Source: Linanthus parryae
Taxonomy: Eukaryota; Streptophyta; Magnoliopsida; Ericales; Polemoniaceae
Direction: 5' to 3'
Assembly: GCA_023055425.1 (NCBI GenBank)
Contig: JALGPY010000006.1
Location: forward strand, 76,568,435-76,632,434
Length of the DNA: 64,000 bases
A model generated the notes under the pieces. It searched no databases. It was not told where the DNA came from and saw nothing but the letters and a program-made list of their open reading frames with translations. Positions 41,854 to 47,068 of this stretch are shown in pieces (the first letter of the stretch is position 1; the number at the start of each line of letters is the position of its first letter). The translations under genes and the position numbers were made by a program.

Positions 41854-41858
41854 ATTCT

Positions 41859-42020
41859 TATTGAAATATATGTAGATATAGTGGGGTTTTCTTGTCTTTC
41901 CCGTATCTTCCTTTCCCTAAGGCTTACATAGCCATTGTAACTGTTAGTTTTTAAGCAACTCCTTCATCAATTAATTATTCAACTTTGCTCTCTACACTTC
42001 TGAATCTACGTTTTTTAAAA
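41859..42020 (+). mobile_element. 5' LTR of chimeric element
   Basis: 162 bp, terminus TG changed to TA (TATTG for an expected TGTTG). Direct repeat of 46814-46975. Its 3' end reads TTTTTTAAAA against TTTTTCAACA in the 3' copy. Confidence 0.85.
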
Positions 42021-42023
42021 TGG

Positions 42024-43446
42024 TGTAGGGTTTTGATTCATGGATGCGCAACGGAAACAAAATAAACCATGCAAAACCCTCCAAGGATCACAAGTCAAGA
42101 GACATAACGATGGTAAAGGAAGAAATCAATTAACACACCTTAGGGTTCTCCTTTGATGAATTCAAACGCGAATTGTGTCACGTTCTCTATAGTTGATCCA
42201 CGCCTAGAGTTGATTTCTAGATCTTCCAATCCTTGGTGCTAGCCCGGAAAGAGGAAGAGGAAGAAGAATCACGCAAAACGAGACCGAAACAAGGAGGTTT
42301 CGACCTCCTTGTGGGCCGACAGGGACGGGCGGCGAGCAAGGGGGGCGGCGTCTCCTTTTGCTTGCTTTCTCTCTCCTTTTTGTTCTCTCCCACTCAAGTT
42401 ATGATCTATTATGACATAAGTGTGGGAAGGAAGGAAGGAGTGTACTTTATATACTCCAACAAATCCTTGCCAGCTACCTAAAGGACGTTTTCTAGTCCTA
42501 CTAGAATTCAATTTAGTCCCTTCCTTGCAAATTAGTCCCTACTAAGTTTGCAAGGTATTGCAAAGTGATCCTTCTAATTAATTAATCCAATTAATTAATT
42601 CCCAAATCTAGTTCAACTCTATATAGCGTGTGACCCCGTAGGTTCTATCTAGTTGGTAGCAACAGTTTGCTAATACGGAGCGGTTTCTAGCAAAACATCC
42701 ATTCTAGCCAACTAATAGAATAGTCATCTTGACAACCTTATACAAGTAGTTGTCTCATCCCTTTGTCTCTATATCCGGATTGGACACGAGACATACAAGT
42801 CACACTCGTATATCCAATCAATAGTTTCTCGATCCATGGGAATAGCCTTATTCGTGCAAATAACATCAATATCCCATATTGATTTATTTGAGTCTGGCCA
42901 GACATTCTATAAGCACTATCCCTCGAGTGGACTAGGATATTTGCTCCCGTTATGTGGGAGCGACAAATTCTATCTACGTACACTACGATCTCTAAGCTTG
43001 CTTCTTATTGTATCCGGTACACGCCTTTATAACTACCCAGTTACGGTGTAGCGTTTAACGCTACCAAAATCACAATAATCCACAACTAGAATATCTAGCG
43101 ACTTCAAGTCTAAGGATGACAATACCATTGCACCGCGAGAAGCACTTGTGACTCAACATAACGTGTACTTAGCCTTCTCGGAGATGGGTCAATCCAGTGC
43201 GCCATTACCTTTAATGCACACCTATGTGTTGGATCATGATATCTCCATATCAATCCAACCCCATACTAGTCTATAGATGATTTTCCCTTTAATCATTATA
43301 CTGGACTAGGGATATTTAAGATAAGCAACACAATTTTAAATCTAAGGACTTCATTATCTTAAATATCCAATAAATAATAAATGAATTTTCTAGCCACATA
43401 TAAATTCATACTAAACTAGATTGCCTCTAGGGAATCTATTCTAACA
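42024..43446 (+). mobile_element. Solo LTR inserted at the LTR/primer-site junction
   Basis: 1423 bp, starts TGTAGGGTTTTG and ends TCTATTCTAACA, with a TATA-like TTTATATA near 42444. Flanks are AATGG (42019-42023) and CATGG (43447-43451). The expected ancestral sequence (CAACA followed by TGGTATC) gives CATGG, so the left copy differs by one substitution. No internal sequence, so it is a solo LTR; family not identified. Confidence 0.7.
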
Positions 43447-43447
43447 C

Positions 43448-44779
43448 ATGGTATCAGAGCCATGGTTCACGATCTGGCTTCCTTTCGGATTTCTCTCTAT
43501 GAGCGACGGCAAGCAGAGCTTCGGTGTAGGCAAAGATCTGTTCCATTCGTTGATTCGATATAAAAGTTTGAACAACCTCGGAGAAGGCAAGCGGTTTGAG
43601 TTCTTCATCGGTGCAGGCGATGAAAGTCGTACCAAGGCCGTCGATGTTACCGGACCTCACGGCCTTGCTGTGAATGGTACTCAAGTTCACTATGATTTCT
43701 TCCACCTGAGTTTGTCATCGTCAGATCTGTTATCGGGGACTCTCTGTTCAGAATCGATCTACATGTTTTCAAAGGTACATAATCAGTACTCTCAATTGAA
43801 TTATATGTCAGTTGATAATAGTGAAATTGAGGAAATAGCTGAGAATATTGTGAGGGGTTTGTTCTGTGTATTGCCTACACTTGCCTTGATTTGGTGTTTC
43901 TGGTTCACTGTTTCCACTATTTGTGGATTTTTGGAAGATTTTGTGATTCTTCCTTTGTTGGCGTTGGAGAGCTCTGCTATCTCTCAGGTTGACTTTGATT
44001 TACATCAGTTGGTTGCTGATTTTAATTTGTTTTCACTATTTGTGGTTGTTATTGAAGCTTTTATGCTTCTTCTTTTGATGAGGTTGGAGAGCTCTGCTAT
44101 CTCTCGATTCGCCTCTTGTTTACATCAGTTTGATGCTGATTTGAGTTTGTTTCCACCATTTGTGGATGTTATTGAAGCTTTTGTGCTTCTTCATTTGATG
44201 AGGTTGGAGAGCTTTGTTGTCTCTCGGGTCGCCTCTTGTTTGCAGCTAGATGAGTTGCTGATTGTCCTGTATTATACGTTCTTGTTGTGCTTCTGTGTTG
44301 AAGCGTTCTATGGTGGGTGTGGTGATCCCAATTTGTGTAGCAGTTGCTTAACTCAAGTAGTTTTGATGGCTCTTGAGGATTTGGTAGTTTTTCGCAGTGG
44401 TTTAAACTCGCTGATTGTGCCTGCTAGGTGTTTTGTGTTTCCGATTTCAATTGAGGATTTTGGGTTTTCTGGTGTTTTGTTGGCCCGTTGTGTCTTGAAA
44501 ACACTTGAAATGGATGAGGAGTATAATGGCATCGAGGCTACCCGAACCAGGAGGTCATTCTATGCTCTTCTTGATGCTGGTCTTTTTGGTGCATTGAAGG
44601 GAGTTTTTTATGGTGGGTTGGATATTCATCACAATGAGAAGAGTTTTGTTGGGTTCTTCAAGGATTTTAAGCAGCTTAATGCTGATTCTCACCGCAATTT
44701 ATGTGGTTCCTTTGTGGCTGGCTTATTGATAGCATATGGAGATCCTACTACTGGTAAGAGTGAAGATAAATTTGAATAG
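43448..44779 (+). CDS. 443-codon ORF: cold-shock-domain piece fused to hydrophobic tandem repeats
   Basis: Uninterrupted frame inside the chimeric retroelement; the ATG overlaps the primer site, and a later Met at residue 18 (MSDGKQSFG) may be the natural start. Residues about 18-80 are the C-terminal half of a cold-shock domain: GKDLFHSLIRYKSL (degenerate RNP2 area), GEGKRFEFFIGAGDESRTK and KAVDVTGPHG, matching plant GRP2/CSP proteins. The N-terminal RNP1 half (KGFGFI) is gone. After that come hydrophobic segments and three 40-residue tandem copies beginning LESSAIS, LESSAIS and LESFVVS. The last ~90 residues (MDEEYNGIEATRTRRSFYALL...) are unrecognised. Its openness contrasts with the broken importin part downstream. 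Whether it is translated is unknown. Confidence 0.5.
   Translation: MVSEPWFTIWLPFGFLSMSDGKQSFGVGKDLFHSLIRYKSLNNLGEGKRFEFFIGAGDESRTKAVDVTGPHGLAVNGTQVHYDFFHLSLSSSDLLSGTLCSESIYMFSKVHNQYSQLNYMSVDNSEIEEIAENIVRGLFCVLPTLALIWCFWFTVSTICGFLEDFVILPLLALESSAISQVDFDLHQLVADFNLFSLFVVVIEAFMLLLLMRLESSAISRFASCLHQFDADLSLFPPFVDVIEAFVLLHLMRLESFVVSRVASCLQLDELLIVLYYTFLLCFCVEAFYGGCGDPNLCSSCLTQVVLMALEDLVVFRSGLNSLIVPARCFVFPISIEDFGFSGVLLARCVLKTLEMDEEYNGIEATRTRRSFYALLDAGLFGALKGVFYGGLDIHHNEKSFVGFFKDFKQLNADSHRNLCGSFVAGLLIAYGDPTTGKSEDKFE
43964..44255 (+). repeat. Tandem repeat, 120-bp period
   Basis: Copies begin at TTGGAGAGCT near 43964, 44084 and 44204, exactly 120 bp (40 codons) apart; the third is partial. Each contains GTTATTGAAGCTTTT and TTTGATGAG-type words, and all keep the same reading frame. 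Confidence 0.85.
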
Positions 44780-46500: not shown

Positions 46501-46607
46501 CAGTATTTTGGGCTCAAGGAGGAACATGAGTACATGGAAGGAATTGTACTTTTATTTAGGAAGTCTGAACCTGAATTCAATGTTGAACCTGTAAAGCAAA
46601 GATACTA

Positions 46608-46721
46608 GACTTCTCATGGGAGAAGAATGAACTATGGGTCATATCTAGTGTTGCTGATGACAATTCCCTTCAAGTTTGGAAAATGGCCCAGAGCATCTGC
46701 TGTGTTGATAATGATTTGTAA
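46608..46721 (+). pseudogene. Captured C-terminus of an MSI-type WD40 protein
   Basis: 37 codons and a TAA, reading [18 protein letters not shown], then [12 protein letters not shown] and an acidic end (CCVDNDL). This is the last WD repeat and tail of the MSI/RBBP4-like histone-binding WD40 family, whose usual pattern is DFSWNP...WVIASVAEDN-LQ(V/I)WQMAE(N/S)IY. It keeps a natural-looking stop, so the fragment includes the original gene end. It follows the importin piece directly, the third host gene represented in the element. Confidence 0.75.
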
Positions 46722-46813
46722 ACCCCTATATTCTGCAGTTCTTTTTCTTTCTCTTCATTTCCTCATCTCCAATTTGGGTGTGATGATCATACACACTCCA
46801 ACTTGAGGGCGGA

Positions 46814-46975
46814 TATTGAAATATATGTAGATATAGTGGGGTTTTCTTGTCTTTTTCGTATCTTCCTTTCCCTAAGGCTTATATAGACATTATAACTGTT
46901 AGTTTTTCAGCAACTCCTTCGTCAATCAATTATTCAATTTTTCTCTCTACACTTCTGAATCTACGTTTTTCAACA
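46814..46975 (+). mobile_element. 3' LTR of chimeric element
   Basis: 162 bp; TATTGAAATATATG...TTTTTCAACA, then ATTCT. A TTATATAG box (46879-46886) is a likely promoter TATA; the 5' copy has TTACATAG. Confidence 0.85.
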
Positions 46976-47068
46976 ATTCTTAACCAATGTCTTTCACAAA
47001 TGCAATATCCATCCCTCACAAAGTCCACGAAAACACAAATTACAAGGGGTTATAAAGGATGTATATAT

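Follow-up and report, generated by a model that had tools for sequence, protein, structure and literature searches.

A stretch of 64,000 nucleotides from the flowering plant Linanthus parryae (contig JALGPY010000006.1 of assembly GCA_023055425.1, forward strand, positions 76,568,435 to 76,632,434; here, the window) contains, at 41854-46980, a non-autonomous retroelement with short long terminal repeats (LTRs). Its interior is occupied by pieces of at least four unrelated host genes, which encode a cold-shock-domain protein, ribosomal protein L5, importin beta-1, and an MSI/RBBP4 protein. We favor, with a probability of about three in four, the reading that this is a copia-like element in which cDNA pieces of four or more host mRNAs, joined during reverse transcription, have taken the place of the coding interior. 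An earlier sequence-only reading of the element had counted three host genes, a number that must be raised because of L5; its statement that several host pieces lie in order and in one orientation holds, since all four identified donors are on the + strand.

Structure of the element

The two direct 162-bp LTRs originally described are identical at 150 of 162 positions. The 12 differences comprise 8 transitions and 4 transversions, giving a Kimura two-parameter distance of 0.0785. The 5-bp target duplication, ATTCT, is likewise present on either side of the pair, and a 162-bp pair with a matching duplication rules out chance repeats as its source. Canonical TG...CA ends are absent: both LTRs begin with TA, the 3' LTR ends with CA, and the 5' LTR with AA. 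Since TA...CA ends are a minority type, the TA start lowers the claim that the element is canonical, not the claim that it is an LTR element. No further copy of the LTR is detected by BLAST within the window.

The tRNA-Met primer site that had been reported is indeed present. It has a 14-base identity with the complement of what we take to be the 3' end of plant initiator tRNA-Met. However, it was described without its separation from the 5' LTR; it is found 1.43 kb away, as an LTR-like insert of 1,423 bp now separates the two, and it adjoins the LTR end once the insert and its duplication are discounted. The insert is flanked by AATGG (42019-42023) on the left and CATGG (43447-43451) on the right. 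Because it contains no repeated 12-mer and has no second copy in the window, it most resembles a solo LTR from a different element. The tract immediately before the 3' LTR, previously called G-rich, is rich in purines, yet includes T and C. The whole element is 5,117 bp; without the insert and its duplication it would be 5,117 - 1,428 = 3,689 bp (~3.7 kb).

The interior had been said to lack gag and pol, and no gag/pol family matches at E<=1 in the eight open-frame translations scanned, a subset of the frames (seven from the interior, one from the insert). Thus, the gag and pol of an autonomous copia element are missing from the seven interior translations. Together, the LTR pair, the target duplication, and the primer site sustain the original identification of a short-LTR retroelement, and the Met primer site and 5-bp duplication suggest an affinity with copia elements. 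Structured RNA was considered for 41600-47200 and rejected, as there is no Rfam match at E<=1.

Table 1. Features of the gene-carrying element (window coordinates)
Feature	Position	Strand	Basis
Left target-site duplication, ATTCT	41854..41858	.	Sequence comparison of flanks
5' LTR, 162 bp; starts TA, ends AAA	41859..42020	+	Alignment with 3' LTR
Later insertion, 1423 bp, TGT...ACA ends, solo-LTR-like	42024..43446	.	Comparison of flanks
Primer binding site, TGGTATCAGAGCC	43449..43461	+	Match to tRNA-Met complement
426-codon open frame across cold-shock piece, hydrophobic repeats, and L5 piece	43499..44779	+	Open reading frame list
Cold-shock-domain protein fragment, C-terminal part of domain; right limit approximate	43499..43690	+	PDB search, alignment
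T-rich region with three 120-bp tandem repeats (43909-44263), no family assigned	43691..44467	+	Repeat comparison, Pfam
Ribosomal protein L5 (uL18) fragment, ~residues 101-207 of 300; alignment gaps of 10, 9, and 1 codons	44468..44728	+	Protein alignment
Stretch between L5 and importin pieces, 183 bp	44729..44911	+	No family match
Importin beta-1 residues 283-403, short out-of-frame stretch near 44946-44995	44912..45274	+	Protein alignment
Importin beta-1 residues 501-726, in-frame stop 45579-45581, 51-bp tandem duplication	45303..46034	+	Protein alignment
Importin beta-1 residues 725-859	46027..46431	+	Protein alignment
Stretch replacing last ~12 importin residues, 155 bp	46432..46586	+	No credible match
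C-terminal end of MSI/RBBP4-type WD40 protein with stop codon	46587..46721	+	Protein search
Purine-rich tract, TTGAGGGCGGA, immediately 5' of 3' LTR	46803..46813	+	Sequence inspection
3' LTR, 162 bp; starts TA, ends ACA	46814..46975	+	Alignment with 5' LTR
Right target-site duplication, ATTCT	46976..46980	.	Sequence comparison of flanks

The captured host sequences

Identified host sequence amounts to ~2.1 kb. The pieces follow one another as cold-shock fragment, T-rich repeat region, L5, 183 bp, importin beta-1, 155 bp, and MSI/RBBP4 end (Table 1).

At least 875 proteins match the importin pieces at E<=0.001 (7995 candidates sharing most words were scored, and the best 120 of the 875 matches listed). 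The top match is importin subunit beta-1 at 2e-184, and Pfam returns TPR_IMB1 with E down to 3.5e-27. The earlier naming of this piece is therefore correct, but the piece is broken: of ~871 residues, 283-403 and 501-859 are present, and the sequence is marked by an internal deletion, frameshifts, duplications, and one stop outside the out-of-frame stretch. Identity with plant importin is at most 71.6% over aligned codons (461 sites) among the matches listed. Residues 501-859 are collinear across 1.13 kb, without an intron-sized interruption. Within the fragment there are also a 51-bp tandem duplication (45892-45993) and a repeated 21-bp motif (45466-45546), possible marks of reverse-transcriptase slippage.

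The L5 piece was overlooked at first because it shares its 426-codon open frame with the "hydrophobic" region. When this frame was searched, taken from codon 3 (43505) as also in the stop simulation below, the L5 domain PF17144 was present in all 44 proteins matching at E<=0.001 (best 2.8e-13) among the 7996 candidates, those sharing most words, that were scored. Among the matches listed, identity with plant L5 is at most 64.4% over aligned codons (87 sites). Residues 101-207 are collinear across 261 bp, again without an intron-sized interruption.

The cold-shock piece is the least certain of the four donors, its PDB matches being individually weak and mutually consistent. The best is "Cold shock protein 2" (E 0.0017), and all 7 matches at E<=10 are named cold shock, Y-box, nuclease-sensitive-element-binding, or nucleic acid binding protein. 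Pfam gives no match to the piece alone. Aligned with a cold-shock gene elsewhere in the window, the piece scores 107, compared with a maximum of 49 in 500 shuffles; this alignment and the consistent PDB matches bear out its first assignment. The gene in question, at 60568-61230 (-), has a single frame with zinc knuckles and a glycine-rich tail (cold-shock domain, E 1.4e-24). It is a relative of the cargo piece and at most a candidate donor.

The identity of the MSI/RBBP4 piece also stands (best E 5.8e-14). The match stops 16 residues short of the end of the 425-residue RBBP4, and a stop codon follows 6 codons on, so that the natural C-terminal end claimed for this piece is plausible rather than proven.

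Another ~1.1 kb of cargo is unassigned, in stretches of 777, 183, and 155 bp. The 777-bp region (43691-44467) is 43% T. It had been described as an unknown hydrophobic repeat region, and in its open frame 43700-44467 has no Pfam match (the other frames were only translated and inspected), but the end of that frame is L5. No family matches 44729-44911, and none credibly matches 46432-46586. When the 183- and 155-bp stretches were searched jointly with the MSI end, none of 196 candidates matched at E<=10, a weak test in that even the MSI family was missed. Sub-cut-off matches in Pfam, NCBIfam, and PDB (Mito_carr, Rh5, WDR36, and others; AhpF at 0.23; an aldolase at 0.57) were treated as noise. 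It would be a bold joint claim, and a most improbable one, that all three stretches are further host genes, that five to seven donors were taken serially over several transposition cycles, that siblings carry nested subsets of the cargo, and that the 426-codon fusion frame is translated.

Joining of the pieces

Joining by reverse transcription is favored because all donors are in sense orientation, there are no intron-sized gaps, a limited scan revealed no DNA-transposon ends, and the cargo takes up the interval from primer site to tract. With random orientation, all four donors would be on the sense strand 1 time in 16. In such a process, element RNA would be packaged with host mRNAs in particles that an autonomous relative provides in trans. 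Co-packaging of L5 mRNA fits the abundance of ribosomal-protein mRNAs, which are housekeeping messages. During minus-strand synthesis, reverse transcriptase would jump to host mRNAs and back, joining sense-strand fragments between the primer site and the polypurine tract; template switches and slippage would also account for short duplications and internal deletions. Further transposition of the captured interior would follow before this copy inserted at ATTCT, and the later LTR-like insertion would separate the 5' LTR from the primer site. Comparable elements are reported to carry exon-only cargo (PMC4717578), and carriers of host genes without gag/pol are described as served in trans (PMC5664825). 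Capture during reverse transcription, as first proposed, is thus the best account of the sense orientation and the lack of intron-sized gaps; template switching, supply in trans, repeated capture, and transposition before the present insertion are steps that we infer.

A different route would have a Helitron or Pack-type transposon capture the pieces as DNA and then land in a small LTR element. Gene-carrying maize Helitrons can hold several gene fragments in a row. In addition, 1194 Helitron captures in maize are cited in one survey (PMC2774510). However, a search of 43446-46813 for exact stems shows no hairpin-CTRR end on either strand, and long inverted arms are likewise lacking, the scan for exact arms finding only two distant inverted 11-mers; on this limited scan the ends of a Helitron or of a terminal-inverted-repeat transposon were rejected. 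Furthermore, the cargo occupies the space from primer site to tract with no gag/pol remnant in the translations scanned, and the pieces have no intron-like gaps. Capture as DNA is thus very unlikely.

Age of the cargo and of the insertion

At sites that are >99% conserved among the plant relatives used (107 of the 120 listed importin matches, of 850-900 aa, and 31 of the 44 L5 matches, of 290-310 aa), the importin pieces have changed at 44 of 217 (20%) and the L5 piece at 13 of 53 (25%). The importin count leaves out the out-of-frame stretch, with which it is 47 of 220. In neutral simulations, whose importin blocks exclude the stop codon and the out-of-frame stretch, these levels are equivalent to ~0.10 (importin) and 0.12-0.13 (L5) substitutions per site. 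In comparison, LTR divergence indicates ~0.04 substitutions per copy since insertion. Because the change at conserved sites exceeds what the age of the LTRs predicts, the cargo was probably captured before the last transposition and had already passed through one or more earlier cycles. Some of the change could have come from a donor that was itself diverged or from error-prone reverse transcription, and thus the older capture is held as probable only.

The similar levels of change in importin and L5 are also what would be expected from joint entry, as when one capture event takes up a template that was chimeric beforehand (a fused or read-through transcript, or a pre-existing retropseudogene cluster), and the reading frame is the same in the cold-shock, L5, and first importin pieces. 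Yet such agreement among three pieces occurs 1 time in 9 by chance, similar ages equally fit several jumps within one replication cycle, and the adjoining of four unrelated genes in one transcript is itself improbable. We consider a single chimeric template unlikely.

Several points weigh against joining by reverse transcription followed by earlier cycles. Intron loss is unproven, as the intron-free spans may be natural in the parental genes. The interior has no A or T run of >=7, so there is no direct RNA signature, and no sibling copies are known from the LTR BLAST, which covered the 64-kb window. The scan for Helitron ends is weak, with 0.62 sites per shuffle expected by chance and exact stems only. 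The LTR age comes from 162 positions, with an exact 95% interval of 3.9-12.6% (~0.02-0.065 per copy), and the cargo intervals (15-26% of importin sites, 14-38% of L5 sites) both reach down to ~0.07. The gap between cargo and insertion is thus modest, and it depends on change being neutral, rates equal, and donors ordinary, with conserved sites defined on the database's best matches to this very query. Finally, the importin pieces have 1 stop in 462 codons versus the ~4-5 expected at a neutral divergence (d) of 0.10 (P(<=1) 0.02-0.10), a shortfall that may reflect a diverged donor, a neutral period that was shorter, or constraint in the past.

The 426-codon open frame

The open frame that runs through the cold-shock piece, the hydrophobic repeats, and L5 could be a fusion gene that selection has retained, as has been suggested for maize Bs1. 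A stop-free frame of this kind survives in 0.4-4% of simulations under neutral d=0.10-0.12 (stops only, no indels), and the gaps in the L5 alignment keep the reading frame. However, for the insertion age alone (d ~0.035) it survives in 22-30% of simulations and is unremarkable, and the frame was singled out because it is open. Comparing the proportions of nonsynonymous (pN) and synonymous (pS) differences between the 120-bp repeats in this frame, pN is at least as large as pS in all three pairs: 0.234/0.076 over 120 bp, and 0.197/0.190 and 0.364/0.226 over 87 bp each. Constraint on amino acids is therefore not seen in any of these pairs. The changes in L5 look like the mutational spectrum (mean BLOSUM -0.62 versus -0.78 expected, P 0.36); those in importin lean slightly toward conservative replacements, though not significantly so (P 0.11, for a set of 47 sites, three of them out-of-frame residues). 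A selected fusion gene is thus highly improbable. There is no good case for a function of this copy, which may have been under constraint in the past, and the copy is most likely inert.

Neighboring sequences

A Ty1-copia element (47069-59501) starts ~90 bp downstream of the gene-carrying element. Its LTRs of ~0.8 kb (47069-47881 and 58683-59501) are 93% identical, and it encodes gag, CCHC/Pol_BBD, and RVT_2; judging from the open frames, its interior is apparently broken between ~49.2 and 55.8 kb. A repeat of ~230-250 bp is present in five copies (16337-16572, 17415-17661, 18398-18648, 39637-39882, and 59798-60066), which match one another both directly and inverted, as a palindromic family of miniature inverted-repeat transposable elements would. 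The segments 4224-7746 and 25966-31240 are related in opposite orientation (79-82% identical across ~3.5 kb), and an integrase (rve) domain is found at 4497-5018 (-). Also present are a 246-codon open frame for a C2-domain protein at 15302-16042 (-) and one at 33886-34569 that matches Transposase_32, a putative plant transposon protein.

Comparison with known gene-carrying elements

The precedent named for this element, maize Bs1, contains fragments of three unrelated host genes (ATPase, xylan endohydrolase, and glucanase) in a chimeric reading frame, and its chimeric gene is reported to be transcribed and translated (PMC13317346). Like Bs1, the present element is an LTR retroelement holding fragments of unrelated host genes; unlike Bs1, it has at least four donors, none in common with those reported for Bs1, and is known here from sequence alone. 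The precedent is also wider than Bs1. The soybean GmaRetroS15, a terminal-repeat retrotransposon in miniature (TRIM), is short, has no coding capacity and a 5-bp target duplication, and carries intron-free fragments of three host genes (PMC4717578). The lack of coding capacity, the duplication, and the several host-gene fragments are shared by the element described here. As defined in that survey, TRIMs have LTRs mostly <250 bp, no coding capacity, and a length mostly <1 kb, or 1.2-1.4 kb with cargo (PMC4717578). The 162-bp LTRs and the lack of any gag/pol found fit this definition, but a length of ~3.7 kb, with ~2.1 kb of identified host sequence, does not, the cargo TRIMs reported being 1,172-1,449 bp (PMC4717578).

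Host genes inside LTR elements are also described as LTR-retroduplicated genes in pepper, potato, tomato, and rice, where ~72% of the pepper carriers of NLR genes are, as here, without gag/pol, and the steps of transposition are presumed to be supplied in trans (PMC5664825). The cases described in the accessible text of that report are NLR genes; two or three genes per LTR element are mentioned in its methods without donor detail (PMC5664825). In maize B73, 425 intact LTR elements contain gene fragments, as does this element, but under the conditions of that study none of the 425 has more than one standard nuclear gene (PMC2774510), in contrast to the four or more donors here. Among plant TRIMs, exon-only fragments are reported for 30 elements belonging to seven subfamilies, and exons from more than two genes for two TRIMs (PMC4717578). 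In surveys such as these, as far as their accessible text goes, multi-gene LTR elements are rare. The present combination of donors was not found reported in a literature search with limited coverage of subscription papers. The element is thus a further, unusually composite case of a kind that is known but rare, and its donor count is the highest in the literature compared. With four donors and a cargo apparently older than the insertion, it provides a good case for asking whether such elements arise by a single multi-jump accident or by serial capture.

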